This document shows, one piece after another, positions 10,945-22,425 of a DNA stretch of 42,702 nucleotides. The notes below the pieces were generated by a model. It searched no databases and was not told the DNA's origin. It saw only the letters and a program-made list of their open reading frames with translations. This DNA comes from a virus. Position numbers and translations under genes: made by a program. Each line of letters opens with the position of its first letter. Positions within the stretch are counted from its first letter, which is position 1. The stretch is from IMG/VR virus record IMGVR_UViG_3300037245_002170, positions 1 through 42,702 of that record, one strand, 5' to 3'.

Positions 10945-12180
10945 ATGTGTACATTAGTAAATGAAATGCCAAAAAAGGTTAAGAAGCGTAGTGGTAAGAA
11001 GACCCGTGAAATTCTTAATATTATCAAAATTGAGGAGACATTGGATTCAAAGAAACCATACCGTTTCAGAATGCTGTTCTTCAAGAACCCTGAGATTAAT
11101 GAACGGGAAGAACCATCGGTGGTTAAATATACCCATGATAAATCGGGTATCGGTAATGATGGTAAACGTACATATGATTTCGTGAACTGTCCTAGAACAC
11201 CATATGTATATTGGGAATCAAACCCATTCGATACGTGTCCAATGTGTGCAACTGCTGGTCGTTATTTCGATACATATAAAGATAGTGGTTACAAAGATAA
11301 AAAAGCACAACGTGAATTTGATAAATATAAAGCTAAACGTTTGGTGATGATTCCGGTATTCATTATACAAGATCCTAACCATCCAGAGAATAACAACAAG
11401 TTTGGTGTATTGAAGATTCGTGAATCTGATTTCAGTTATTTGAAAGATGAAAAGACTGGTGAGTGGAGTACAATTGATCCATTTGAGGTTCTTGAAAAGG
11501 AAATTGATTCCAGTGTAAAAGGTGGTATGTTCCCATTCAACACCAATGGGGTCGATCTACTTATGACCGTCAAGAAGGTTAGTGTGTCTGAAGGTGTTGA
11601 TAAACCGTTCTCGTATGATAAGATTAACAAGATTAAGCTTAGTAAAAAATCATATGAAGTTGATGCGATCAACTCTGATGGACCATTCACCAAGTTCAGT
11701 AAGATATTTGATGAAGAATGTTACACGGGTGTTACCAAAGAAGAATTGGTTTCATTCTATGATAAACATATTGGTGTTACATATGATGTACCGGATGAAG
11801 ACATGGACGGTTTAGAAGATGAACCACAACCTAAGAAGACAACCAAACCAGCTGAAAAGAAAGCCAAACCAGCTGAAAAGAAAACCAAACCAGCTGAAAA
11901 GAAGGAAGTTGATGATGAAATCCCAATGGACTTCGAAGATGAAATGGGTGATCTAGATGAAATGGGTGATCTAGATGAAAAATCATCTGAACCTGAAATT
12001 GAAAAGGTTGAAGAATTCGACATTGATGACCTAGACGAGCTTGATGTTGAAGATATCATCGATGGTGCGGTTGCAGAAGATAAGGTTGAAGTAGTTGAAC
12101 CAGTATCTGACGACAATACTGGTGACATGGATGACCTAGATGATCTAGATGGTTTCCTAGATGACCTAGAGGATCTATAA
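10945..12180 (+). CDS. Single-stranded DNA-binding protein, gp32-like
   Basis: This 411-residue protein has the T4 gp32 plan. A basic N terminus (KKVKKRSGKKTRE) may mediate cooperative binding. A DNA-binding core follows with likely zinc ligands H64, C82, C98 and C101 (NPFDTCPMCATAG). The C-terminal tail is long and very acidic and ends DDLDGFLDDLEDL, expected to recruit replication partners. Between core and tail lies a lysine/proline repeat. It is longer than T4 gp32 (301 residues) because of this linker and tail. AGGAG at 10934-10938 supports ATG 10945. Confidence 0.85.
   Translation: MCTLVNEMPKKVKKRSGKKTREILNIIKIEETLDSKKPYRFRMLFFKNPEINEREEPSVVKYTHDKSGIGNDGKRTYDFVNCPRTPYVYWESNPFDTCPMCATAGRYFDTYKDSGYKDKKAQREFDKYKAKRLVMIPVFIIQDPNHPENNNKFGVLKIRESDFSYLKDEKTGEWSTIDPFEVLEKEIDSSVKGGMFPFNTNGVDLLMTVKKVSVSEGVDKPFSYDKINKIKLSKKSYEVDAINSDGPFTKFSKIFDEECYTGVTKEELVSFYDKHIGVTYDVPDEDMDGLEDEPQPKKTTKPAEKKAKPAEKKTKPAEKKEVDDEIPMDFEDEMGDLDEMGDLDEKSSEPEIEKVEEFDIDDLDELDVEDIIDGAVAEDKVEVVEPVSDDNTGDMDDLDDLDGFLDDLEDL
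11845..11907 (+). repeat. Three 21-base in-frame repeats in the SSB gene
   Basis: Three tandem 21-base units encode KPAEKKA, KPAEKKT and KPAEKKE. They form a basic linker between the DNA-binding core and the acidic tail. Copy number may vary between relatives because the units are nearly identical at the DNA level. Confidence 0.9.
11938..11973 (+). repeat. Two 18-base in-frame repeats in the SSB acidic tail
   Basis: Two identical 18-base units each encode DEMGDL. They extend the acidic C-terminal tail of the gp32-like protein. Confidence 0.9.
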
Positions 12181-12435: not shown

Positions 12436-13008
12436 ATGAAACCTATTAAATTAAACGAAGGTGCAAAGGGTTGGACGATCCTATATAATTATAAGGGTCG
12501 TAAAGTTGTTGGTACCAAACATTTTTATGAACGCATTGGTGAGCGAAACCAAATTGATGAGAAAGCTGTTAATACTATTTTTGAACGTGCAATGGATAGT
12601 TTGGTCAAAAAGAAACGTGGTAAAGAGAAGACCGGTGAATATCTAGTTTACTCTAAAGAATTTAAACAGGGTATTGTCATCGATTTTAGAGATCATAGCC
12701 TTGATGGGTTTGAAGATGGGAATAATAACATCGTAGCGGTGACATTCCTCCCAAGAACTAAATCGAAACCAGCTGATAATAAAACAACTAGATTGGTTGT
12801 TGAATCGAGTGATGTTGATTATTTTAGTCATGATCTAGCTAGTTACATCTATGATACATTTGATGTCGGTAGTGAAGCGGTTATGGAATCAGTTGACCCA
12901 GATAAAGTATCAATCATTAGGAAGAAGTTCAATGATATTGAATATGTTGCAGTGTTCAGTGAAGGTAAATTATGGAACATTGATATTGGTATTGTTGAAG
13001 TTGATTAA
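12436..13008 (+). CDS. Hypothetical protein
   Basis: This 190-residue protein starts 8 bases after AAGGAGA. The N-terminal half contains KHFYERIGERNQIDEKAV and EYLVYSKEFKQGIVIDFRDH, a pattern I have seen in uncharacterised phage proteins and loosely in RelE/DUF4258-type folds. The C-terminal half alternates strands and ends LWNIDIGIVEVD. No function can be assigned. Confidence 0.6.
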   Translation: MKPIKLNEGAKGWTILYNYKGRKVVGTKHFYERIGERNQIDEKAVNTIFERAMDSLVKKKRGKEKTGEYLVYSKEFKQGIVIDFRDHSLDGFEDGNNNIVAVTFLPRTKSKPADNKTTRLVVESSDVDYFSHDLASYIYDTFDVGSEAVMESVDPDKVSIIRKKFNDIEYVAVFSEGKLWNIDIGIVEVD

Positions 13009-13025
13009 ATAAATAAACTTTTTAG

Positions 13026-13054
13026 TTGATTTTCAGTAGTTAGATGTGTATAGT
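13026..13054 (+). promoter_or_regulatory. Promoter before a small gene
   Basis: TTGATT at 13026-13031 and TATAGT at 13049-13054 are 17 nt apart. The small gene at 13081 follows with its own AAAGGA ribosome binding site. Confidence 0.6.
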
Positions 13055-13080
13055 AGTTGACAGTTAATAAAGGAAAGCAA

Positions 13081-13236
13081 ATGGAAAACATGACATCACA
13101 ATGGAAACCTCGTACAAACACTGGTAAGACCCACTTCAATAAAATGAAGGGTACTGGTGAATCATGGACGAACCTTCGTTCAGAAGTATGGGGTGCGGGA
13201 TACGTCTGCAAAGAAAAATGGGTTGACGTAAAATAG
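13081..13236 (+). CDS. Small hypothetical protein upstream of the tRNA region
   Basis: This 51-residue basic protein (MENMTSQWKPRTNTGK start) follows a good promoter and ribosome binding site. It is rich in lysine, tryptophan and glycine. No family is recognised. It ends just before the first tRNA-operon promoter. Confidence 0.55.
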   Translation: MENMTSQWKPRTNTGKTHFNKMKGTGESWTNLRSEVWGAGYVCKEKWVDVK

Positions 13237-13278
13237 TTTGAAATAATGGTTGACTTCCACTAACGAGTTGAGTATAGT
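13237..13278 (+). promoter_or_regulatory. Stable-RNA promoter P1 with upstream element
   Basis: TTGACT at 13250-13255 and TATAGT at 13273-13278 are 17 nt apart. The AT-rich TTTGAAATAATGG lies directly upstream (13237-13249) and recurs before P2 and P3. P1 would transcribe the large structured RNA and perhaps the tRNA array. Confidence 0.75.
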
Positions 13279-13283
13279 AATAC

Positions 13284-13320
13284 ATAACGATTGAGAAATC
13301 AATCAATGTTCTTTAAAATC
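13284..13320 (+). promoter_or_regulatory. Transcribed leader with boxA-like sequence (P1)
   Basis: The initially transcribed stretch reads ATAACGATTGAGAAATC and is followed by TGTTCTTTAAAA at 13307-13318. The latter resembles the bacterial boxA (TGCTCTTTAACA) bound by NusB/S10 in rRNA operons. The same arrangement follows P3. Confidence 0.55.
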
Positions 13321-13329
13321 TGAATAATT

Positions 13330-14190
13330 TGGGACGTATGGGTTCCAATTTGCCTTCGGGTAAGATAAACTGCGGTAACGTAGTGAAACAGGGTAGCTTT
13401 CTTACAAGTCCTGCCATGGAATTTATTTTTTCATGGACATCTATACAAGCCAAGCTTCTTATAAACTTCACTCCGGTGGAGGATTGGTGGAAGAGCTACA
13501 GGAAGAGGGTAACACCTCACACTAACGGATGATGCCGAGAACACTGAATCAATAGTTCGACATTGAAGAAGCAAAGGGTAGATATACTGTTAGAGTTTGT
13601 TGTGAACGAAAGCGGTGTGTCAAACTTAGTGGTGAAGGAACCAATTAGGTATTCCTGAGTCGTGAAAGTTGATTCAAGTAACTCGACAGGGTGAAAGGGT
13701 ATGTCTCGTAGTGTATTTCTGTTTTGGAAACTTAATGGAAGCAGTTGCTGACTGCACGAGGTGGTAAGTTGCAAATATAGCTCAATTGGTAGAGCAGTTG
13801 TCTAAGAAACAATTGGTTGGTGGTTCAAGTCCATCTCAAAGCAAAAGACGGTCAGCACGGTTGAATGAAAGTGACCTAACACCACTCAATGTGAGGTGGG
13901 TGATGGATTCCCTGCAAGGATGAAATCTATTTGTTAGCAACCATTCATAATATCTTAGCGGATATGAACAGCCCGTAAGGGTTGGTGACGTGAAACGCTA
14001 GTAGAGTAGTTTAACTGGATAGTGGTGAAGCAACCACTTTAAAAAATGCGGTCATGATGTTGACCAGTTTGCCCTTAGTGGGAATTGGTGGATAGTTGAT
14101 TAACGGGTACTCGCAAGGTGTTCGGTACGGTCTAAAAGAAACATCAAGTTGATAGGAGTAATCTCATCCTGTTGATAACATTTTTTGGAA
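13330..14190 (+). ncRNA. Large structured noncoding RNA candidate (GOLLD/ROOL-like class unproven)
   Basis: About 860 bases downstream of P1 hold no convincing gene but many local hairpins. These include a UUCG tetraloop stem (13350-13363), GUAA tetraloop stems at 13369-13384 (ACTGCG/CGTAGT) and 13970-13983 (AGCCC/GGGTT), GCAGT/ACTGC at 13741-13755, and AGTGGT/ACCACT near 14020-14038. Size, tetraloops and position at the head of a phage tRNA array fit the giant ornate RNAs GOLLD and ROOL, which are known from phages near tRNA genes. I cannot confirm class membership, and the exact ends are uncertain. Confidence 0.5.
13771..13842 (+). other. tRNA-like domain inside the large RNA
   Basis: Three arms have canonical tRNA spacing: D-stem GCTC/GAGC (13780-13795), anticodon arm GTTGT/ACAAT with loop CTAAGAA (13797-13813), and T-arm GGTGG-TTCAAGT-CCATC (13819-13835). 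The flanking 7-mers do not pair as an acceptor stem and no CCA follows. The nominal anticodon AAG would be Leu, but the variable arm is too short for Leu. Confidence 0.5.
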
Positions 14191-14245
14191 TTAATTTGAA
14201 TTGTATAAATAACATTAACGAACAACGGATATTAGGAAAGAATAA

Positions 14246-14356
14246 ATGAACAAACTTGGAAAACATATTATAGCGGGAAAATTAACAGTGGATAGTAATC
14301 CATTGCGCCCGTCCGTCCAATTTGCCAATTATATTGGTATGGAGGCTGGATTTTGA
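14246..14356 (+). CDS. Short ORF, possible leader peptide
   Basis: This 36-residue frame has AGGAAAG at 14234-14240 as a ribosome binding site. Its stop codon at 14354-14356 overlaps the first arm of a hairpin that competes with the terminator at 14390-14417. The peptide (MNKLGKHIIAGKL start) has no recognisable motif or obvious run of regulatory codons. The position suggests a leader peptide controlling readthrough into the tRNA genes. Confidence 0.45.
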   Translation: MNKLGKHIIAGKLTVDSNPLRPSVQFANYIGMEAGF

Positions 14357-14396
14357 CCACTTAAGCAAATAGCTTAAACTTTTTACGAAGGTGGTC
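14355..14396 (+). promoter_or_regulatory. Antiterminator-like hairpin
   Basis: GACCAC at 14355-14360 pairs with GTGGTC at 14391-14396, and inside it TTAAGC (14361-14366) pairs with GCTTAA (14372-14377). The distal arm is shared with the terminator stem, so the two structures exclude each other. Confidence 0.55.
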
Positions 14397-14417
14397 TAAA
14401 AATAGATCGCCTTTTTT
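14390..14417 (+). terminator. Intrinsic terminator before the first tRNA
   Basis: GGTGGTCTA (14390-14398) pairs with TAGATCGCC (14403-14411) around an AAAA loop and is followed by six Ts. It is a classical Rho-independent terminator only 18 bases before tRNA-Arg, with no promoter visible between them. Confidence 0.8.
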
Positions 14418-14435
14418 GTTACACTAATTTAAATT

Positions 14436-14510
14436 GCTCTTTTAGTTCAATGGATAGAATACCGGAGTACGATCCCGATGATAGGAGTTCGAATCTCTTA
14501 GAGAGCACCA
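14436..14510 (+). tRNA. tRNA-Arg (ACG)
   Basis: The acceptor GCTCTTT pairs with AGAGAGC and CCA is encoded. The anticodon loop GTACGAT gives ACG, read as ICG if deaminated. The anticodon stem has two mismatches at its ends (CCGGA/CCCGA), so the gene may be slightly decayed. Confidence 0.75.
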
Positions 14511-14514
14511 ATTT

Positions 14515-14530
14515 TGATCTTTGAAAAATA
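14515..14530 (+). promoter_or_regulatory. boxA-like sequence between tRNA-Arg and tRNA-Val
   Basis: TGATCTTTGAAAAATA resembles the boxA-like segments found in rRNA operon leaders and spacers and matches the copy at 14993. It lies in the transcribed spacer, consistent with an antitermination site. Confidence 0.4.
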
Positions 14531-14550
14531 GAATACAGAACGATAGAAAC

Positions 14551-14625
14551 GGTGGGTTAGTTCAGCGGTAGAACGTCTGGTTTACATCCAGAATGTCGGG
14601 GGTTCGATCCCCTCACTCATCACCA
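14551..14625 (+). tRNA. tRNA-Val (TAC)
   Basis: A complete cloverleaf is visible: acceptor GGTGGGT/ACTCATC with G-U pairs, D-stem GTTC/GAAC, anticodon arm TCTGG-TTTACAT-CCAGA, T-loop TTCGATC, and encoded CCA. Confidence 0.93.
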
Positions 14626-14631
14626 TTTTTT

Positions 14632-14722
14632 GGAAGTAGATGCATGACGGTGATTGCTACTCATTGCTAATGAGATGGGTTGGAGAAATCCAACTGGGGT
14701 TCGACTCCTCTTACTTCCTCCA
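14632..14722 (+). tRNA. tRNA-Ser (GCT)
   Basis: The acceptor GGAAGTA pairs perfectly with TACTTCC. The anticodon loop TTGCTAA gives GCT. A long variable arm (TTGGA-GAAA-TCCAA) marks it as a class II tRNA, as expected for Ser. CCA is encoded. Confidence 0.92.
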
Positions 14723-14724
14723 TT

Positions 14725-14797
14725 GGGGTGGTAGCTTAAAGTAAAGCGGTTCGCTTGCACCGAATCAGATGCGTGGTCGAACACGTTCACTCCACCA
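14725..14797 (+). tRNA. tRNA-Ala (TGC)
   Basis: The acceptor GGGGTGG/TCACTCC contains the G3-U70 pair that identifies Ala tRNAs. The anticodon loop CTTGCAC gives TGC. The T-arm is unusual: GCGTG/CACGT encloses a six-base loop GTCGAA instead of the standard seven-base TTCGAAT type. CCA is encoded. Confidence 0.85.
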
Positions 14798-14821
14798 ATT
14801 TGAAATAAATGAAATAACAGG

Positions 14822-14850
14822 TTGACTTACTGAAACAAGTCGGGTATAAC
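14822..14850 (+). promoter_or_regulatory. Stable-RNA promoter P2
   Basis: TTGACT (14822-14827) and TATAAC (14845-14850) are 17 nt apart. TTTGAAATAAATGAAA at 14799-14814 lies upstream in the UP-element position. No TGAGAAA leader follows this one. Confidence 0.7.
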
Positions 14851-14936
14851 ATATACATACTTAAGGAACGGATACGCCTCTGATGATACATGCAAACTGA
14901 GTCCGAAATTAAGTTTGAAATAAATGAAACAAATGA

Positions 14937-14965
14937 TTGACAATGATTAACGATTGAGATACATT
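14937..14965 (+). promoter_or_regulatory. Stable-RNA promoter P3
   Basis: TTGACA (14937-14942) and TACATT (14960-14965) are 17 nt apart, again preceded by TTTGAAATAAATGAAA (14914-14929). The leader ATAACGAATGAGAAATT begins 7 nt after the -10 box, and the boxA-like TGATCTTTGAAAATTG is at 14993-15008. Confidence 0.75.
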
Positions 14966-14971
14966 GACAAC

Positions 14972-15008
14972 ATAACGAATGAGAAATTGTTCTGATCTTT
15001 GAAAATTG
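14972..15008 (+). promoter_or_regulatory. Conserved leader and boxA-like element (P3)
   Basis: ATAACGAATGAGAAATT (14972-14988) is nearly the same as the P1 leader and related to the GTAATCAATGAGAAACC leader of four protein-gene promoters in this window. TGATCTTTGAAAATTG follows and resembles boxA. Confidence 0.55.
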
Positions 15009-15215
15009 AATATAGATAAATTGGTTTTAGCCGAAATTACCAATAAGCCGAAAACATGTTGAGTACGTTTAGGTTTGAGTAGGCTAATCTTTTATCAATG
15101 TAGACCACATATGAATGTGAGTCGTATATTGACGGTATGATTCAATCGTCACATATTAGCAATAGAGTTGAGGAAACCTTTTGTTGATTTGATGAATCTT
15201 AAATAATTTTATATC

Positions 15216-15292
15216 CGGTGTATAGCACAGTCTGGTAGTGCGCGTGGTTTGGGTCCACGAGGTCGCAGGTTCGAACCCTGCTACACCGACCA
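15216..15292 (+). tRNA. tRNA-Pro (TGG)
   Basis: The acceptor CGGTGTA pairs with TACACCG. D-stem GCAC/GTGC, anticodon arm CGTGG-TTTGGGT-CCACG and T-loop TTCGAAC are all standard. CCA is encoded. Confidence 0.95.
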
Positions 15293-15603
15293 ATTTGATG
15301 AATAAGTTGTATGGCGCACTTAGTGTAATCTGAAACGATTCCTATTCGTTTATCAACCTCTGATCATCACTAATTTAAATGAGGCTACGGGGCAACATTA
15401 AACTTCCGTTTACCAATTTTGGTTATCGCTTCGGGTTGAGTTCCTAAAGGGAATACTCGGCATCGATGTCTCACAGAAAACAGGACGAAGAGGTGAGATG
15501 CTTCAGATCGTTTATTGATAACCTTTAGTCAGTCGTATAAATGAATACGGTTCCCATTGCGGGAACAGATGTTGGTGTCGATTCCAGCTTGGCGATCAAT
15601 TTC
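15293..15603 (+). other. Gene-free region with structured RNA between tRNA-Pro and tRNA-Lys
   Basis: No coding sequence is seen. GGTTATC (15421-15427) pairs with GATAACC (15517-15523), enclosing GAG-TTCC/GGAA-CTC near 15438-15458 and TCTCAC/GTGAGA (15469-15474 with 15493-15498). This is a compact three-stem RNA of about 103 bases. Just after it, 15535-15598 holds three tRNA-arm-like hairpins (CGTAT/ATACG, GTTCC/GGAAC, TGG/CCA around TGTCGATT) with no acceptor stem, perhaps a decayed tRNA. Confidence 0.5.
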
Positions 15604-15680
15604 GGGTGTGTAGCTCAGTTGGTTAGAGCATCGGACTTTTAATCCGAGGGTCGAGAGTTCGAGCCTCTCCGCACCCACCA
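15604..15680 (+). tRNA. tRNA-Lys (TTT)
   Basis: The acceptor GGGTGTG pairs with CGCACCC. The anticodon arm TCGGA-CTTTTAA-TCCGA gives TTT. CCA is encoded. Confidence 0.95.
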
Positions 15681-15688
15681 TTTTTATT

Positions 15689-15763
15689 GCGCTGTTGGCA
15701 GAGTGGCTTATGCATTGGATTGCAAATCCAAATACAGGTGTTCGATTCACCTACAGTGCTCCA
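15689..15763 (+). tRNA. tRNA-Cys (GCA)
   Basis: The acceptor GCGCTGT pairs with ACAGTGC and the discriminator is U, as is usual for Cys. The anticodon arm TTGGA-TTGCAAA-TCCAA gives GCA. CCA is encoded. Confidence 0.95.
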
Positions 15764-15771
15764 TTTTTATT

Positions 15772-15858
15772 GGAAGGTTGACAGAGTGGTAATGTTCTGG
15801 TCTTGAACACCAGTGGCGGTGAAAGCCGACGAGGGTTCGATCCCCTCACCTTCCTCCA
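15772..15858 (+). tRNA. tRNA-Ser (TGA)
   Basis: The acceptor GGAAGGT pairs with ACCTTCC. The anticodon arm CTGGT-CTTGAAC-ACCAG gives TGA. A long variable arm (CGG-TGAAA-GCCG) is present. CCA is encoded. Confidence 0.94.
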
Positions 15859-15862
15859 TTTT

Positions 15863-15999
15863 GTCGTCAGCTGAATGATAGTGAAACAGATAGCCTTGTG
15901 CAGAAAACTACTATTGAATCATTCTCTCAGATGATACGGGTGTATCATTGATTACAGCAGATATTACGGAGTTTCACTGTCACCACAGAAGCTCCACCA
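15863..15999 (+). ncRNA. Structured RNA unit with possible pseudoknot
   Basis: This 137-base unit between tRNA-Ser and tRNA-Tyr ends in CTCCACCA like its tRNA neighbours but has no acceptor stem that I can match. GAATGAT (15873-15879) pairs with ATCATTC (15918-15924). AGTGAAAC (15880-15887), in its loop, pairs with GTTTCACT (15971-15978) outside, which makes a pseudoknot. ATGATAC/GTATCAT (15931-15948) forms a hairpin. Confidence 0.4.
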
Positions 16000-16006
16000 T
16001 CTTAAT

Positions 16007-16093
16007 GCATAGATAGAGCGTAATTGGTAGCGTCACAGGTTGTAACCCTGTTGCCTTCGGGTCTTGGTGGTTCGAGTCCATCTCTATGCACCA
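16007..16093 (+). tRNA. tRNA-Tyr (GTA)
   Basis: The acceptor GCATAGA pairs with TCTATGC. The anticodon arm ACAGG-TTGTAAC-CCTGT gives GTA. The long variable arm has a UUCG tetraloop, as expected for a bacterial class II Tyr tRNA. CCA is encoded. Confidence 0.92.
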
Positions 16094-16102
16094 TTTTAAG
16101 TC

Positions 16103-16177
16103 TCGCAAGTCGTATAGTGGCATTGCTTCTGGCTGTTAACCAGAAAGACGTTGGTTCGAATCCAACCTTGCGAACCA
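16103..16177 (+). tRNA. tRNA-Asn (GTT)
   Basis: The acceptor TCGCAAG pairs with CTTGCGA. The anticodon arm TCTGG-CTGTTAA-CCAGA gives GTT. T-arm and CCA are standard. Confidence 0.94.
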
Positions 16178-16186
16178 ATTTTATAC

Positions 16187-16263
16187 GGACTCTTAGTTCA
16201 GTTGGTCAGAACGTCTCGCTCATAACGAGGGTGTCGGGGGTTCAAGTCCCTCAGAGTCCACCA
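16187..16263 (+). tRNA. tRNA with CAT anticodon (elongator Met or Ile2)
   Basis: The acceptor GGACTCT pairs with AGAGTCC. The anticodon loop CTCATAA gives CAT. Three intact CAT tRNAs occur in the array; this one has a fully paired acceptor and so is not an initiator. Lysidine modification would convert it to Ile, which cannot be decided here. Confidence 0.92.
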
Positions 16264-16753
16264 TTTTGAAATCATACAATATCTAAGGCGATGTTGCATA
16301 CAGACCAGTAACTATTGAATCCAAACTCTATGAAGAGCTAAGTAATGGAGAGGTGAAAATAGTGCTCCATGAAATCCGTTGAGAGCATACAAGTACGGTG
16401 ACATGTAGAATCGGAATAATTGGCCGAAAATGATGCAAGTGCGGTATGCTAATGAACTGCATTAAATGGTATCTGTGAAAATGGCAATATTTGATTTCGA
16501 TTAATTTAACACAATAAGGGTGTTGGGTACGGGTTATCCACAGTAGTAAGGTAGGTTCGATTCCCACCAACCTTTGGGTTCGATTCCCTTGGAGTGGACT
16601 GAAACTACTTTCGATTTATAGGTACACGGGAAGGAAAATAGTAGAGAAGTGTTGTTAGGTTGATTGATAATGTCACGTAATTCCTAAATTAACTCTAGGG
16701 TCGCCATCTAGTCATGGATAATGATAAATCTACAACCTATCCAATTTAATATA
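16264..16753 (+). other. Gene-free 490-base region with a tRNA fragment
   Basis: I see no gene in this stretch. Near its middle, AAGGGTG (16516-16522) can pair with CAACCTT (16568-16574) with one mismatch. They flank a single stem-loop (GGGTA/TATCC) and a T-arm GTAGG-TTCGATT-CCCAC, a 59-base tRNA-like relic. A second T-arm-like sequence (GGG-TTCGATT-CCC) follows at 16576-16588. The rest is AT-rich with no structure I can defend. Confidence 0.4.
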
Positions 16754-16828
16754 GTCCCATTCGTCTAACGGTTAGGACATCGGACCTTCAATCCGAGAAT
16801 AGGAGTTCGATTCTCCTATGGGACACCA
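16754..16828 (+). tRNA. tRNA-Glu (TTC)
   Basis: The acceptor GTCCCAT pairs with ATGGGAC. The anticodon stem TCGGA/TCCGA encloses CCTTCAA, giving TTC. Position 33 is C instead of the near-universal U. CCA is encoded. Confidence 0.85.
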
Positions 16829-16978
16829 ATTTTGCAGGTTGACCGTAGTGGGTTAAATCTGCCTAAACCGAATGTGGTGTATTGGAAGCACATCACCCCT
16901 CAGTAATCATACTTCACTGGTGTGGTGAAATGGGGAGAAGGATGAGGATTCGAAGTCCGAAACTAGGTTTTGATTATT
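16829..16978 (+). other. Structured spacer between tRNA-Glu and a tRNA-like unit
   Basis: No gene is present. CCCC (16896-16899) pairs with GGGG (16932-16935) around TTCAC/GTGAA (16913-16917 with 16925-16929), and GCAG/CTGC brackets an upstream segment. It continues into the tRNA-like unit at 16979. Confidence 0.35.
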
Positions 16979-17154
16979 TTTGTGGTAGTGTAACGGAATC
17001 CCATAGACGAATTGAGATATCTTTTCGGTAGAGGATCAAAGTATTACAACAGGGGTGCTTCAGTGCAGTCAAAACCAACTAGTTGTGGTTGTAATATCGA
17101 GTAGCACAGGTGGGAAGACCATCTGGTATCGGTTCAAATCCGATCCACAATACA
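16979..17154 (+). ncRNA. tRNA-like unit with about 104-base insert in the D-loop
   Basis: The acceptor TTTGTGG pairs with CCACAAT (6 of 7). TA at positions 8-9 is followed by D-stem GTGT (16988-16991), whose partner GCAC lies at 17104-17107, leaving a D-loop of 112 bases instead of 7-10. The T-arm ATCGG-TTCAAAT-CCGAT is perfect. The anticodon-arm position holds a hairpin CAGGTGG/CCATCTG with no U33. The end reads ACA, not CCA. Confidence 0.5.
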
Positions 17155-17161
17155 TTTTATT

Positions 17162-17246
17162 GCTCGTATGGTGAAACTGGTAAACGCATCAGACTTAAAA
17201 TCTGACGACTTCGGTCTTGTGGGTTCGATTCCCACTATGAGCACCA
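17162..17246 (+). tRNA. tRNA-Leu (TAA)
   Basis: The acceptor GCTCGTA pairs with TATGAGC. The anticodon arm TCAGA-CTTAAAA-TCTGA gives TAA. The class II variable arm and CCA are present. Confidence 0.95.
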
Positions 17247-17251
17247 ATTTT

Positions 17252-17336
17252 AGAATCTCATCGTTGTCAATCAACCCCTTACTTGGTGGTTGAGGCAAGA
17301 GCAGACGTGCAATTGGAGAAATCCAGCGATAGAACA
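17252..17336 (+). ncRNA. Structured RNA unit between two Leu tRNAs
   Basis: ATCGTTG (17260-17266) pairs with CAGCGAT (17324-17330), and inside it TCAACC (17271-17276) pairs with GGTTGA (17288-17293). It is not a cloverleaf and carries no CCA. It may be a small RNA or a processing spacer. Confidence 0.4.
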
Positions 17337-17342
17337 TTTTAT

Positions 17343-17427
17343 GCTCGTGTGGTGAAACTGGTAAACACGCTGGTCTTAGGAACCAGTGCCGTAAGGTTTG
17401 TGGGTTCGACTCCCACCATGAGCACCA
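17343..17427 (+). tRNA. tRNA-Leu (TAG)
   Basis: The acceptor GCTCGTG pairs with CATGAGC. The anticodon arm CTGGT-CTTAGGA-ACCAG gives TAG. The class II variable arm and CCA are present. Confidence 0.95.
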
Positions 17428-17434
17428 ATTTACT

Positions 17435-17775
17435 GGGGGTGTCACGGTTTCGATTGTCATCACAAGGTAATAACTACAAGTAGTGGATGAGCTTCAGGCC
17501 ACTTTAAAAAGGGTTCAACAAACTATAATTGCAGATACTCTAGCAATTGCGGCTTAGTTGTCGCGCACGTAATTAGAAACATTCACGTTCTTTTTATTGT
17601 GTTCCTATTAGTGGATTGACTTACTAGGAAAGACTGGTTGACGTAATCCAAAGGATTTGACTGAAATGAAAGTGTTTCAAAAGAGTGTCAGTACTTCTTT
17701 GAATATTGACTAAACTTGTAAACGTTATACTGGAAGATAGGTAAGACGGGAGTTCGAATCTCCCCACCTCCACCA
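17435..17775 (+). ncRNA. ssrA: tmRNA (transfer-messenger RNA)
   Basis: The 5' end GGGGGTGTCACGGTTTCGA is the standard tmRNA start. The 3' end has T-arm GGGAG-TTCGAAT-CTCCC and acceptor CACCTCC-A-CCA. The acceptor pairs fully with GGGGGTG and contains G3-U70, the alanyl-tRNA synthetase identity pair. A short reading frame at 17531-17557 encodes ADTLAIAA and stops at TAG, giving a typical small hydrophobic degradation tag; the exact resume codon is inferred. The length of 341 bases fits bacterial tmRNA. It would rescue ribosomes stalled on cut or broken mRNAs. Confidence 0.93.
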
Positions 17776-17799
17776 TTTTAAACAACAAAGGAGAAATAA

Positions 17800-18048
17800 A
17801 TGTTTATTGAAGTGTATATGATCCCAGCAAGTGAATGGGGTACAAAGGATAAAAGTAAAGTAAAAGTTGAGGCTAATAAACGAACAGTTAATGTGTCATC
17901 TATTTTACGGGTTCAACCATCAACTAATGAAGCATTGAAGGATCGTGCCGAACTAGTGATGTCTGACAAAGTTCGTTATCACGTTCTTGGGTCATATGAA
18001 GAAGTAATTGCACGGGTTAACAAAGTTGATAATGTTGAACGTGTATAA
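17800..18048 (+). CDS. Small hypothetical protein behind the tmRNA
   Basis: This 82-residue protein has AAGGAG at 17787-17792 as a good ribosome binding site. It contains two lysine-rich strands (KDKSKVKVEANKRTVNV) and a C-terminal VLGSYEEVIARVNKV helix. It is the only well-supported protein gene inside the plus-strand tRNA array, and it lies 24 bases after the tmRNA. No function is recognised. Whether it acts with tmRNA, as SmpB does, cannot be judged: it lacks SmpB motifs and is about half its length. Confidence 0.65.
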   Translation: MFIEVYMIPASEWGTKDKSKVKVEANKRTVNVSSILRVQPSTNEALKDRAELVMSDKVRYHVLGSYEEVIARVNKVDNVERV

Positions 18049-18141
18049 CAGAACCATACTGGATAAGATTAGGTAGTATCTGCAATGGATACTGTAAAAA
18101 ATAGAGTGGGTCAACCACCAGCTTAATAAACTCCAGTTTTC

Positions 18142-18216
18142 GCTGATGTAGCTCAATGGTAGAGCAATGGATTGAAACCCCATGTGTCGTTGGTTCGAAC
18201 CCAACCTTCAGCACCA
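18142..18216 (+). tRNA. tRNA-Phe (GAA)
   Basis: The acceptor GCTGATG pairs with CTTCAGC with one mismatch. The anticodon loop TTGAAAC gives GAA; its stem ATGGA/CCCAT has one A-C mismatch. CCA is encoded. Confidence 0.87.
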
Positions 18217-18227
18217 ATTTTTATAAT

Positions 18228-18374
18228 GCTCGATGTTGTGATGAGGAGGAAAGATTATAATAAGACAGTACATCTTATTCTGACTTCCAATATTTTGTTG
18301 GAGCACACCATCAACAATAAAATTACGTAAACCTATTGTTGAATGGAGGAGATCATACCTCTCATTGAGCACCA
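18228..18374 (+). ncRNA. tRNA-ended RNA unit, 147 bases
   Basis: The ends pair as a tRNA acceptor (GCTCGAT with ATTGAGC), followed by A and CCA. The 5' end resembles the Leu tRNAs of the array. The T-arm position holds GAGG/CCTC with an abnormal loop. Inside are two strong hairpins, AATAAGA/TCTTATT with a seven-base loop and CAACAATA/TATTGTTG, instead of D and anticodon arms. Confidence 0.45.
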
Positions 18375-18625
18375 ATTTTTATTGTCTGTGGTTTGTAGGA
18401 TAACCACAATAGAAAACACCTACCCAATTTAAGACGGTGGTAAAGAAAAACGTTCAATTGATAATGGAAACCGTTGTCAACCATCTCATTACAGTGCCTA
18501 TACCATGGTGCATGACTGGAAGCGGGAATGAGACGAAAAGTTAATTGAATAGGTTCTATGTGATACTAGTTAAATCATGACTTTCTTCGGAAAGTAGGGT
18601 TCAAATCCCTTATTATCATCACCAA
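18375..18625 (+). ncRNA. Structured unit with tRNA-like 3' end
   Basis: TGATAAT (18459-18465) pairs perfectly with ATTATCA (18612-18618), directly after a T-arm TAGGG-TTCAAAT-CCCTT and a variable-arm-like hairpin with a UUCG loop. The RNA ends CACCA with two extra bases before the usual CCA position. The middle can form TTCAATT/AATTGAA around TCTCATT/AATGAGA. No anticodon arm is evident. Confidence 0.4.
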
Positions 18626-18632
18626 TTTTGCA

Positions 18633-18703
18633 ATTAGCATATAGGTATAATGCGATTCCCCAGAGAAGGAGTAGAAGTGAATTCAAACCCACGTTGCATA
18701 TCC
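18633..18703 (+). pseudogene. Decayed tRNA
   Basis: A tRNA-sized unit has a good D-arm (GCAT/ATGC), an anticodon-position stem ATTCC/GGAGT around an eight-base loop CCAGAGAA without U33, and a T-arm with two A-C mismatches around TTCAAAC. The acceptor pairs TGCAA with TTGCA, and CCA is present. I do not assign an amino acid. Confidence 0.45.
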
Positions 18704-18710
18704 ATTTTAT

Positions 18711-18785
18711 TGCCCTATAGTATAACGGTCAGTACAGGAGACTTTGAATCTCTGGGTCACGGTTCGATTCCGTGTAGGGCATCCA
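18711..18785 (+). tRNA. tRNA-Gln (TTG)
   Basis: The acceptor TGCCCTA pairs with TAGGGCA. The anticodon arm GGAGA-CTTTGAA-TCTCT gives TTG. CCA is encoded. Confidence 0.94.
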
Positions 18786-18792
18786 TTTTTAT

Positions 18793-18867
18793 TGCCTTAT
18801 CGTACAACGGTTAGTATGGGAGACTCTGACTCTCTAGATTTCAGTTCGATTCTGAATGAGGCATCCA
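18793..18867 (+). tRNA. tRNA-Gln (CTG)
   Basis: The acceptor TGCCTTA pairs with TGAGGCA. The anticodon arm GGAGA-CTCTGAC-TCTCT gives CTG. It is a diverged duplicate of the neighbouring Gln tRNA, with the wobble base changed. CCA is encoded. Confidence 0.92.
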
Positions 18868-18878
18868 ATTTATAAAAC

Positions 18879-18954
18879 GCAAGTGTGGCTGAGTGGTAAA
18901 GGCGGGTGATTTCCAATCATCTTTTTGCGGGTTCAAATCCTGTCACTTGCACCA
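18879..18954 (+). tRNA. tRNA-Gly (TCC)
   Basis: The acceptor GCAAGTG pairs with CACTTGC. The anticodon arm GGTGA-TTTCCAA-TCATC gives TCC. CCA is encoded. Confidence 0.9.
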
Positions 18955-18961
18955 ATTTTAT

Positions 18962-19074
18962 GCTAGGTTACGCAAGACATAGACTTCCCCAATAGGTATA
19001 CATCTGGATAGCCTTCGGATAAGCGAGAGGTGCAAAACCTTCGATGATTGGTTCGAATCCAATGCCTAGCTCCA
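18962..19074 (+). ncRNA. tRNA-like unit, 113 bases, enlarged D-loop
   Basis: The acceptor GCTAGGT pairs with GCCTAGC (one G-U), the T-arm ATTGG-TTCGAAT-CCAAT is perfect, and CCA is encoded. A D-stem CGC/GCG encloses about 46 bases. The anticodon position holds GAGG/CCTT with loop TGCAAAA, lacking U33. It is either an insert-bearing tRNA or a tRNA-derived RNA. Confidence 0.5.
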
Positions 19075-19152
19075 ATTTAGGTTAAGCTGTTAACCTCTTA
19101 ACATTAAGTTGAAGTATCCACATATATGGTGGATTGATAAATAACACACAAT
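19075..19152 (+). other. Hairpin spacer
   Basis: AGGTTAA/TTAACCT (around 19079-19097) and ATCCAC/GTGGAT (around 19118-19136) form two hairpins in the spacer. No gene is present. Confidence 0.4.
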
Positions 19153-19370
19153 TTGAAGTAGAATAAGTCGATACTGTCACCCTAATAGCTTAAAGGTGAT
19201 GAAAAACATATGAGAGACTCCGCTAGAAGAACGTAATGGACACATGTGATACAAAACAACCAGAACTAGTAAGCAAGCAATGAGGAACAACGTGAAATCC
19301 ATATGGTGAAAATTTCGCCCACCCTACGTGGTGGAGAGTGTATGTAATCCGATAACATACCTTCAATCCA
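19153..19370 (+). ncRNA. Structured RNA with acceptor-like ends, 218 bases
   Basis: TTGAAGT at the 5' end pairs with CCTTCAA at the 3' end (6 of 7), followed by T and CCA and the usual ATTTT spacer. Next to the 3' strand GTATGT/ACATAC forms a T-arm-like hairpin with a nine-base loop. TCACC/GGTGA forms near 19177-19201. There is no cloverleaf, and the assignment is tentative. Confidence 0.35.
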
Positions 19371-19382
19371 ATTTTAAACACT

Positions 19383-19457
19383 TTGCCTGTAGATCAATGG
19401 TTAGATTGCTAGACTGTGACTCTGGAGACTTGGGTTCGACTCCCAACAGGCAACCCA
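19383..19457 (+). tRNA. tRNA-His (GTG)
   Basis: The acceptor TTGCCTG pairs with CAGGCAA and the discriminator is C. The anticodon arm CTAGA-CTGTGAC-TCTGG gives GTG. The base before position 1 is T, so the G-1 that identifies bacterial His tRNAs is not encoded. Confidence 0.9.
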
Positions 19458-19466
19458 TTTATATAT

Positions 19467-19542
19467 GCCAGTATAGCTTTAACGGTAGAGCAACGGTCTT
19501 GTAAACCGAAGGTTGGGAGTTCGAATCTCTCTGCTGGCTCCA
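19467..19542 (+). tRNA. tRNA-Thr (TGT)
   Basis: The acceptor GCCAGTA pairs with TGCTGGC. The anticodon arm ACGGT-CTTGTAA-ACCGA gives TGT. CCA is encoded. Confidence 0.93.
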
Positions 19543-19547
19543 ATTTT

Positions 19548-19623
19548 GCATGATTAGCTCAGATGGAAGAGCACGAGATTTCTAATCTCGAAGTCATAGG
19601 TTCGATCCCTATATCGTGCGCCA
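19548..19623 (+). tRNA. tRNA-Arg (TCT)
   Basis: The acceptor GCATGAT pairs with ATCGTGC and the discriminator is G. The anticodon arm CGAGA-TTTCTAA-TCTCG gives TCT. CCA is encoded. It would read AGA, a codon often rare in hosts. Confidence 0.94.
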
Positions 19624-19626
19624 TTT

Positions 19627-19720
19627 TGAATAACATTAGACCACGGCAACACAAGGAATTCCTGCAATATGGATGTAACAACTTTCGTGGTTCTGTTGAA
19701 TGTGTCCTTGGTGTTATTCA
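19627..19720 (+). ncRNA. Structured RNA closed by a 9-bp stem
   Basis: TGAATAACA (19627-19635) pairs with TGTTATTCA (19712-19720). ACCACG (19640-19645) pairs with CGTGGT (19686-19691) inside it, and AGGAATTCCT lies in the loop. It has no CCA and no tRNA arms. It could be a small RNA released when the flanking tRNAs are processed. Confidence 0.5.
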
Positions 19721-19724
19721 TTTC

Positions 19725-19801
19725 CCCTGATTAGCTCAGTCGGTTAGAGCGTTCGACTCATATTCGAAAGGTCGCTGGTTCGATTCCAGCATCAGGGACC
19801 A
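19725..19801 (+). tRNA. tRNA with CAT anticodon (Met or Ile2)
   Basis: The acceptor CCCTGAT pairs with ATCAGGG. The anticodon arm TTCGA-CTCATAT-TCGAA gives CAT. All pairs are good and CCA is encoded. It could be elongator Met or lysidine-modified Ile. Confidence 0.92.
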
Positions 19802-19828
19802 TTTTAAACAATGATATATTAATCAATT

Positions 19829-19903
19829 TGCGGGTGGGAGGTTCAGTATCTCTCTTGGCTCATAACCAAGCATAAACTGGTGCAAATCCAAGACCCGCTA
19901 CCA
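19829..19903 (+). tRNA. tRNA-fMet-like (CAT)
   Basis: The acceptor TGCGGGT/ACCCGCT has six pairs and a T-T mismatch at 1-72; a 1-72 mismatch is the hallmark of bacterial initiator tRNAs. The body GCGGGTGGGAG resembles bacterial fMet tRNA. The anticodon arm CTTGG-CTCATAA-CCAAG gives CAT but lacks the three G-C pairs of a strong initiator. The T-arm has two mismatches. Confidence 0.7.
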
Positions 19904-19911
19904 ATTTCAAT

Positions 19912-19984
19912 GGGGATATAGCTCAATCGGTAGAGCACTAGCCTGTCAAGTTAGAGGTTGCGGGATCGTACCCCGTTATTCCCG
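19912..19984 (+). tRNA. tRNA-Asp (GTC), 3' end not followed by CCA
   Basis: The acceptor GGGGATA pairs with TATTCCC and the discriminator is G. The anticodon arm CTAGC-CTGTCAA-GTTAG gives GTC. The T-loop ATCGTAC is atypical. CCA is not encoded: the sequence runs directly into CATTTTT. The stop codon of the minus-strand HNH gene lies inside the acceptor region. Confidence 0.85.
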
Positions 19985-20716
19985 CATTTTTAATAATTCC
20001 ACCCTACGTGTTGGTATATCATAGAATCTACACCACTTTCGAATAGAATTACCACTTACACCATATTTTATACCAGCTTGTTCAATATTTGTTGATATTA
20101 TGTCATCTATTAATATATTAACATCAGGTCTTTTGGATATATTCGAGTTTGATACAATTTGAGCACAACTAACACACCGTGTTGATTTTCTATGTATTGT
20201 AGTGTTACAGTCAATACATTTATTGATTTTTCGTTTATGTTTACCACTAAATGTTGATGTTTGGGTGTGGCAGTTAGGGCATATGAATCTTAAATTACAC
20301 ATCCTATTATCGTTATTTATACCGTTTTTGTGATCCAATTGTAATACCAACACATCATCATTCCAAAATGGTAGTTGTCCACATGAATCACATATATATG
20401 GTAACATATCACCATCGATTATACGTTTCTTAATTCGACCACGGCAATATGTTGAATTTTCAATAAAAACACTATCGTCATCTAATCGACACTGTTTTCT
20501 TAGTTGTTCACCATGTTTCTTTAAGTGTATTTTACGGTTTTCATCTAATTTCAAGGTTGAAAGATCATATAAAACTATACGATTTTTAAGTGTTTGCCTA
20601 TTTCCACAACTTCCACTTAACCCTATAGTTTTTAATACATCAACTGATGATGTTGATGTATCCAAAATATGTTGTAATTGTTGTATGCTATATGTATCAA
20701 TTTTACTTTTTCTCAT
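19976..20716 (-). CDS. HNH homing-type endonuclease
   Basis: This 246-residue protein is the only minus-strand gene. Its HNH core is LQLDHKNGINNDNRMCNLRF followed by CPNCHTQT (around residues 124-152), flanked by CDSCGQ and a second CxxC pair (CIDCN, CVSCAQ), a zinc-stabilised arrangement. The C-terminal segment IKYGVSGNSIRKWCRFYDIP looks like a helix-turn-helix for target recognition. AGAGG upstream of ATG 20714-20716 supports the start. Its stop overlaps the 3' end of tRNA-Asp, so it probably entered the array as a free-standing mobile endonuclease. Confidence 0.88.
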   Translation of the reverse strand: MRKSKIDTYSIQQLQHILDTSTSSVDVLKTIGLSGSCGNRQTLKNRIVLYDLSTLKLDENRKIHLKKHGEQLRKQCRLDDDSVFIENSTYCRGRIKKRIIDGDMLPYICDSCGQLPFWNDDVLVLQLDHKNGINNDNRMCNLRFICPNCHTQTSTFSGKHKRKINKCIDCNTTIHRKSTRCVSCAQIVSNSNISKRPDVNILIDDIISTNIEQAGIKYGVSGNSIRKWCRFYDIPTRRVELLKMRE

Positions 20717-20783
20717 TTTTTTAACCTCTTATATATTTATGAACCCACAAGTATTTATACAAAACAGTCACAATACCAATTAT

Positions 20784-20859
20784 AGTCACGTAGCTCAGAA
20801 GTGAGAGCATCTGTCTGATACACAGAGGGTCGGGATTGCAAAATTCTCCGTGACTACCA
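20784..20859 (+). tRNA. tRNA-Ile (GAT)
   Basis: The acceptor AGTCACG pairs with CGTGACT. The anticodon arm TCTGT-CTGATAC-ACAGA gives GAT. The T-arm is weak, with an enlarged loop containing TTGCAAAA. CCA is encoded. Confidence 0.85.
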
Positions 20860-20863
20860 ATTT

Positions 20864-21011
20864 GAGTAAGTAGTATAATGGCAGAACACCATTGATAGTT
20901 TGATCCCTCATTCGCCTAGTATTTCGGCTCATAACCGAAGAACATCGAGTTGATATCAGTAATTCTTGACACATAATGGGGAATTAGGTTCGATTCCTAA
21001 CTTGCTCACCA
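20864..21011 (+). ncRNA. tRNA-like unit, 148 bases, with internal CAT anticodon arm
   Basis: The acceptor GAGTAAG pairs with CTTGCTC, the T-arm TTAGG-TTCGATT-CCTAA is perfect and CCA is encoded. A D-arm-like GTATAATGGCAGAAC follows the 5' acceptor strand. A perfect anticodon arm TTCGG-CTCATAA-CCGAA lies in the middle, but about 30 extra bases separate it from the D-arm and about 45 from the T-arm. It could be a tRNA with two inserts or a recombined tRNA. Confidence 0.5.
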
Positions 21012-21020
21012 ATTTCAATT

Positions 21021-21095
21021 AGGGGCGTAGTACAACGGTTAGTATTGGGGATTCCAAATCCTTTGATTTCGGTTCGAATCCGAACGTCCCTGCCA
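21021..21095 (+). tRNA. tRNA-Trp (CCA)
   Basis: The acceptor AGGGGCG pairs with CGTCCCT and the discriminator is G. The anticodon loop TTCCAAA gives CCA. The 3' CCA is encoded. Confidence 0.93.
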
Positions 21096-21104
21096 ATTTC
21101 AAAT

Positions 21105-21179
21105 GCATCATTAGCTCAATGGTAGAGCACCACGTTGCCAACGTGAAGGTTGATGGCTCAACTCCGTCATGATGCACCA
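21105..21179 (+). tRNA. tRNA-Gly (GCC)
   Basis: The acceptor GCATCAT pairs with ATGATGC. The anticodon loop TTGCCAA gives GCC. The T-loop is CTCAACT, lacking the usual TTC. CCA is encoded. Confidence 0.88.
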
Positions 21180-21205
21180 ATTTATCTATATTCAATTCAG
21201 TTTTC

Positions 21206-21287
21206 GCACATATGGTGAAACTGGTAGACACGCTACTTTCAAACGGTAGTGTCTTATGACGTGTGGGTTCGAATCCCTCTATGTGCA
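21206..21287 (+). tRNA. tRNA-Leu (CAA), CCA not encoded
   Basis: The acceptor GCACATA pairs with TATGTGC and the discriminator is A, followed directly by ATTTTT. The anticodon stem CTACT/GGTAG encloses TTCAAAC, giving CAA. The class II variable arm is present. It is the last tRNA of the array and would need CCA addition by the host enzyme. Confidence 0.88.
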
Positions 21288-21310
21288 ATTTTTATTAAAG
21301 GTGGGTGTTT

Positions 21311-22027
21311 ATGTTTATGAAAAGGTTAATTAGCGTATTGTTGGTACTCATCAGTGTATCAATTGTTTCACATAGTAAGCGTATCACATATTGGGATAGT
21401 ACATCAATCGGTTGGGAAACTCTCGAATATGATACCGAAATGTTTGAATTACATTTGTCTACCAATCTAACATCAGATGATTGGTATAAAATTGGTTTAA
21501 TACCACTAAACATAACTAATTATTTCCACAATGCAATACTACCACAAGCATTTTTCCGAATCACACCCCAAAATGAACTTTTGAAACTACCTGTACCCAG
21601 TTCAATATTTAGCAATGGTGTGTGGGTATCGGATGGACATGACTGGGAATTACGTGATAGAAATCATTGGAATGTAACAACCAATGTACCTGAATTGTTG
21701 GATATAGGAGATGTCACCACATTGGTCACAGATTACACACCACCATCAAATATAGTAACCACTCATGGTACGGTTGGTCTACCAATAGAACGATTTGCAA
21801 TACCATTAGTCTACGGTACAAATTACGTACACTGTTGGGATGATCGATCACGGTCATGGTTGGTAAAGGAGATTTATGATCTCAGTGGTTTTTATGAATT
21901 TCAGGTTCCAGCATGGAATCAATGGTTTTGGGTTGGTGTGTTCAATGAGGATGCTGATGAATATGTGTATGGGAAATGGATTGGTCATTTCTTAATATCA
22001 AAATCTGAAATTAATATAAGGTACTGA
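21311..22027 (+). CDS. Secreted protein of unknown function
   Basis: This 238-residue protein begins with a clear signal peptide (MFMKRLISVLLVLISVSIVSHS, cleavage likely near residue 22). The mature part is rich in Trp and beta strands, with two loosely similar halves each containing YWD/CWDD and WxxG motifs (residues about 26-60 and 175-225). It is probably exported to the periplasm or envelope. ATG 21311 is chosen over GTG 21305 and ATG 21317; AAAGGTGG precedes it. No family is recognised. Confidence 0.65.
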   Translation: MFMKRLISVLLVLISVSIVSHSKRITYWDSTSIGWETLEYDTEMFELHLSTNLTSDDWYKIGLIPLNITNYFHNAILPQAFFRITPQNELLKLPVPSSIFSNGVWVSDGHDWELRDRNHWNVTTNVPELLDIGDVTTLVTDYTPPSNIVTTHGTVGLPIERFAIPLVYGTNYVHCWDDRSRSWLVKEIYDLSGFYEFQVPAWNQWFWVGVFNEDADEYVYGKWIGHFLISKSEINIRY

Positions 22028-22042
22028 CATGTAAAGTTTATG

Positions 22043-22070
22043 TTGACAGTTGGTTTGATATATGTATACT
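22043..22070 (+). promoter_or_regulatory. Promoter for the membrane-protein gene
   Basis: TTGACA (22043-22048) and TATACT (22065-22070) are 16 nt apart. Confidence 0.7.
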
Positions 22071-22097
22071 AGTGGTTAAATTAAAAAGGAGATATTT

Positions 22098-22346
22098 ATG
22101 CGTTGGTTAAAGTTTGTTGCAAAATTGTTTGGTCGTATTGTTGGTGGTATTTTAGCTTGTGGTTTATGGTATGGGTTAGTATTTGTAATCACATCAATGT
22201 GTATGGATATTAAAGCTATTTTTATTATGTTATTAGTATGTCTGTGTCTGTTTGCTGTATGTGCTTTAGTCGGTGTATGTATTGCTGGTGTTTGTACATA
22301 CATTCAATGGTCATGTAAACCACCCCTACTAGATCCAAAAAAATAA
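22098..22346 (+). CDS. Small membrane protein
   Basis: This 82-residue protein has two hydrophobic segments (about residues 15-35 and 40-68) and a basic N terminus (MRWLKFVAKLFGR), so it probably spans the inner membrane twice. It is cysteine-rich. AGGAG precedes ATG 22098 at good spacing. The function is unknown; size and topology would fit a superinfection-exclusion or holin-like protein, but nothing proves this. Confidence 0.6.
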   Translation: MRWLKFVAKLFGRIVGGILACGLWYGLVFVITSMCMDIKAIFIMLLVCLCLFAVCALVGVCIAGVCTYIQWSCKPPLLDPKK

Positions 22347-22350
22347 GTTG

Positions 22351-22379
22351 TTGACATTAATCAGTTTGTCTGTTTCAAT
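22351..22379 (+). promoter_or_regulatory. Promoter for the methyltransferase gene
   Basis: TTGACA (22351-22356) and TTCAAT (22374-22379) are 17 nt apart. The spacer holds one arm of a perfect 14-base inverted repeat whose other arm is at the start codon. Confidence 0.65.
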
Positions 22380-22425
22380 ACTCACCTAATCAACAGGAGA
22401 AAGACAAATGAACAAACTGATTAAT
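22356..22425. repeat. 14-base inverted repeat around the methyltransferase promoter and start
   Basis: ATTAATCAGTTTGT (22356-22369) and its exact complement (22412-22425) are separated by 42 bases. The left arm lies between -35 and -10 and the right arm covers the first codons. This layout suggests paired operator sites. Confidence 0.65.

Follow-up and report, generated by a model that had tools for sequence, protein, structure and literature searches.

What is the role of a short ORF lying between a GOLLD RNA and a tRNA array in a T4-related phage? The DNA analysed here, a 42.7-kb virus record, will be called the window. It belongs to a T4-related myovirus (gp15 tail sheath stabiliser, GroEL, DnaB-like helicase) and carries one tmRNA along with almost thirty genes for tRNAs or tRNA-like RNAs, as found with ARAGORN and Rfam. 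Ahead of the tRNA array, a 36-codon ORF is followed by an intrinsic terminator. The original prediction saw in this arrangement an attenuator, where the position of a ribosome on the ORF would decide whether the array is transcribed. The reading that we favour, and consider fairly probable from the sequence comparisons below, is that region 14204-14417 is a self-contained late mini-gene, inserted between GOLLD and the tRNA array of a single operon with an rrn-like leader. Unless stated otherwise, all features lie on the + strand.

Exact-pattern searches of viral_contigs with the terminator lead, the ORF core and GOLLD yielded one relative only. This phage, L002, is the single close relative in the collections searched (83% identity in a neighbouring protein). 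Contig L007 was discarded as a relative: its match fell by chance within coding sequence, and the contig is GC-rich and unrelated. A distant phage, L062, was picked up by a scan for the CATAACGA motif and is the third phage with the leader described below. GOLLD was not found in the records of distant relatives gathered through the helicase (about 30% identity).

The short ORF and its predicted late promoter

The ORF spans 14246-14356 and encodes a 36-aa peptide, MNKLGKHIIAGKLTVDSNPLRPSVQFANYIGMEAGF. Its start, length and stop are conserved in L002, as is the sequence of a Shine-Dalgarno site, AGGA, at 14234-14237. Comparison of codons 16-36 gives a dN of 0.05 and a dS of 0.35 (window and L002, two sequences only), and of the four codons that differ in this part, three do so synonymously. 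With the stop included, 21 of 22 codons have the same meaning in both phages, a value matched by 0.2% of random placements. The two peptides share DSNPLRPSVQFANYIGME-x-GF; codons 1-15 have diverged. The peptide thus appears to be under purifying selection. No family match was obtained for it, tblastn against phages gave matches only at E values of at least 5, and the pattern of its core is absent from genome_contigs.

A T4-type late promoter, TATAAATA, is located upstream at 14204-14211 and is kept with its flanks in L002. As a promoter of this type, it would be used by the gp55/gp33/gp45-modified polymerase. In the window and its relative, the motif stands 15-45 nt ahead of a Shine-Dalgarno-led ATG at 10 of 21 sites, as compared with 6.6% of 482 sites in a permuted-letter control (p = 3e-7, a value somewhat too small because homologous sites of both genomes are counted twice). 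Like the promoters of T4-type late units, TATAAATA occurs as a -10 element before genes, without a -35 element and mostly 18-45 nt before Shine-Dalgarno-led starts. The window unit differs from those units in being located within a GOLLD-tRNA operon. A promoter-like match at 14353-14380 (9/12) was rejected as due to chance, such matches being no commoner than in shuffled sequences. Neither the TATAAATA promoter nor the promoter and boxA leader at 13250-13318 figured in the original prediction.

L002 retains the whole series, namely TATAAATA, Shine-Dalgarno site, 36-aa ORF, helix, terminator and tRNA-Arg. It also has an additional TATAAATA-led ORF between GOLLD and the ORF-terminator unit. Overall, the short ORF looks like what is probably an ordinary late mini-gene.

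A probable stable-RNA operon with an rrn-like leader

The GOLLD RNA occupies 13325-14170. The Rfam model spans 13703-14170 and the 5' part is assigned from conservation. The match to RF02032 covers the full model length with 98 bits (E 2.6e-25), under the gathering score of 150, and the RNA is conserved in L002. A tRNA-like domain is found in the linker, at 13771-13843 (RF00005, 51.7 bits), as described for GOLLD RNAs (PMC12286853). Hence, tRNA-Arg, which had been called the first tRNA, is neither the first tRNA-like gene nor the first stable RNA of the locus, since this tRNA-like gene comes earlier, inside GOLLD. The anticodon loops of the linker domain differ between the window, L002 (11969-12028) and L062 (9587-9660). 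Between the window and L002, a compensating change is seen in its anticodon stem. Thus, the full-length model match, the adjoining tRNA array and the tRNA-like linker domain bring the window copy close to known GOLLD RNAs; its score below the gathering value and its rrn-like boxA leader set it apart. To our knowledge, what GOLLD RNA does and how it is controlled are not known.

Upstream of GOLLD, a sigma70-type promoter, TTGACT-17-TATAGT, was located by consensus scan at 13250-13278. It is kept in L002 and present in L062 as TTGACA...GATACT. It is followed by a GNRA-loop hairpin, GATTGA-GAAA-TCAATC (13289-13304), in a boxB-like position, and by an rrn-like boxA, TGTTCTTTAAAA (13307-13318), which carries the TGNTCTTTRAAA motif. 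A second boxA-like site, perfectly conserved in L002, lies between tRNA-Arg and tRNA-Val (14515-14526). A second promoter-leader is found at 14937-15004, with a GNRA hairpin at 14977-14992 and a boxA at 14993-15004. The TGNTCTTTRAAA motif occurs 3 times in the window for 0.13 expected, always on the + strand and within the stable-RNA region 13307-15004. The E. coli rrnB spacer boxA matches the same pattern.

The complete leader, composed of promoter, GNRA hairpin and boxA, was found five times across the three phages. All 6 hairpin pairs form in each of the five modules, the third being UA, AU or GC; pairing is therefore 100%, as against 16-56% in slid controls. The order promoter, hairpin, boxA, stable RNA is that of the boxB-boxA leaders of rrn operons. 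The window leader differs from these in preceding phage GOLLD and tRNAs rather than rRNA, and binding of NusB/S10 to it, with antitermination as the result, is putative. With a conserved rrn-like leader before GOLLD and tRNA arrays in all three, these phages seem to borrow the host mode of rRNA transcription for their own stable RNAs. Among the papers searched, none names GOLLD RNA together with boxA.

Behind the L062 leader come GOLLD (117 bits) and then tRNA-Thr, which starts 15 nt past the end of the GOLLD match, with neither ORF nor terminator in between. From this order, it looks as if GOLLD and the tRNAs form one operon. The ORF-terminator unit of the window and L002 would then look like a late cassette inserted in that operon, and it may have been gained in the window lineage, although loss in L062 is also conceivable. 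Beyond the final tRNA of the L062 array, a GC-rich terminator-like hairpin with a U-run (11054-11080, -13.9 kcal/mol) is observed; it is likely to mark the end of the GOLLD-tRNA operon of this phage.

Attenuator, noncoding RNA or inserted gene

The intrinsic terminator is located at 14387-14417, with a 12-bp stem and a 4-nt loop (14387-14414) and a U6 run (14412-14417). It is beyond chance, as the sole + strand hairpin with dG <= -12 kcal/mol plus a U-run in the 9.5 kb from 12901 to 22400, and it is conserved in L002 (-17.5 kcal/mol). A possible antiterminator extends over 14355-14396. There, GACCAC (14355-14360) is complementary to GTGGTC (14391-14396) and the helix encloses TTAAGC/GCTTAA (14361-14377). 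The geometry put forward in the original prediction is borne out, since the ORF stop TGA (14354-14356) overlaps GACCAC and the distal arm GTGGTC also belongs to the 5' arm of the terminator. It is equally correct that no promoter separates the terminator from tRNA-Arg, a trivial point for a gap of about 19 nt. Lack of the ORF in relatives had been named as a finding that would speak against attenuation; the prediction passes this check, as L002, the sole close relative, keeps the ORF.

As a leader-peptide attenuator, the locus would work as follows. A ribosome at TGA 14354 would cover GACCAC and let the terminator form. In its absence, the antiterminator would form and the first four tRNAs would be transcribed. 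As in attenuators of the trp and tna type, there is a short, putatively translated ORF, a possible alternative helix overlapping with it and an intrinsic terminator between the ORF and the genes. The stop codon overlaps the antiterminator arm in both the window and L002, where the short helix is conserved: the L002 arm, GATCACC, still pairs with GGTGGTC, and the shared terminator 5' arm is constant as both its partners vary consistently. The antiterminator pairing is only marginally beyond chance, its duplex energy being matched by 3-5% of dinucleotide shuffles when 45-70 nt upstream are considered and by 9-10% with 140 nt. However, the terminator arrangement is the more stable one, by 6.8 kcal/mol in the window (-19.9 kcal/mol with the terminator, -13.1 with the antiterminator alone) and by 9.8 kcal/mol in L002 (-22.0 and -12.2). 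Moreover, the codons of the ORF include no stretch specifying the array tRNAs and no regulatory run, a late promoter belongs to the unit itself, and the unit is not conserved with the operon to be regulated, since L002 has it but the GOLLD-tRNA operon of L062 lacks it. Its weak antiterminator, its late promoter and its lack of a regulatory codon run set the unit apart from the trp and tna systems. Of the proposed gating of the array by ribosomes, the conserved ORF and the capacity of a terminating ribosome to cover the 5' antiterminator arm thus stand, whereas energies, codons, late promoter and L062 go against it. We consider attenuation unlikely.

Somewhat less likely still is a small RNA made late and not translated, some 200 nt long and ended by the intrinsic terminator, in which the ORF would be incidental. 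L002 retains most of the hairpin-forming sequence in the ORF region. However, the z score of -3.8 for the fold of the whole region is carried mainly by the terminator, because without it the ORF region folds about as shuffled sequence does (z of -0.3 to -0.9 for the whole, -1.7 to -2.2 for its core). The conservation of Shine-Dalgarno site, frame, length and stop, together with the synonymous changes in codons 16-36, also argues against this reading. The terminator might instead be the end of the GOLLD unit, with tRNA-Arg to tRNA-Ala expressed by basal readthrough and boxA playing no role. GOLLD is indeed the nearest stable RNA upstream and an effect of boxA on intrinsic terminators is doubtful. 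However, the terminator lies about 220 nt past the GOLLD 3' end, after a complete late gene, and boxA-like sites are present on both sides of it. This appears to us the least probable of the alternatives. Together, the folding energies, the lack of a regulatory codon run, the presence of a late promoter and the absence of the unit from L062 point to an inserted late mini-gene rather than to a dedicated leader of the array.

Such a mini-gene would comprise the T4-type late promoter, the Shine-Dalgarno site, the 36-aa peptide and the intrinsic terminator. The late transcript would start near 14218, encode the peptide and end at 14417. Transcripts from the GOLLD promoter would carry boxA and read through the terminator into tRNA-Arg, -Val, -Ser and -Ala, the four tRNAs that separate the terminator from the next promoter. 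Readthrough might be aided by Nus-type antitermination, by partial efficiency of the terminator, or both. BoxA may help RNA polymerase past the terminator. Its action on an intrinsic terminator is uncertain, because rrn boxA complexes mainly counter Rho-dependent termination (PMC4807359). The rest of the array would be driven by the second promoter-boxA leader. Promoter use, termination, Nus binding and terminator readthrough are all deduced here from sequence. The terminator of the mini-gene could also restrict tRNA expression. A two-phase switch may tentatively be envisaged, in which boxA-armed sigma70-type transcripts would pass the terminator and yield tRNAs and unarmed late transcripts would stop there and yield the peptide.

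The tRNA array downstream

tRNA-Arg(ACG), at 14436-14510, is the first tRNA past the terminator (ARAGORN, Rfam). Two apparent C-A mismatches are seen in its anticodon stem, at positions that are U-A pairs in L002, and its Rfam score is 50 bits as compared with 68.8 bits in L002. The window copy may be decaying. The long inter-tRNA spacers 14805-15215, 15298-15603 and 16264-16753 have no clear ORFs and are well conserved with L002; they are possible further structured RNAs. The phage-encoded tmRNA is located within the array, at 17435-17775, with a predicted tag ADTLAIAA. Finally, a minus-strand ORF that looks HNH-like by eye lies among the tRNAs at 19976-20716, with its own TATAAATA at 20752-20759.
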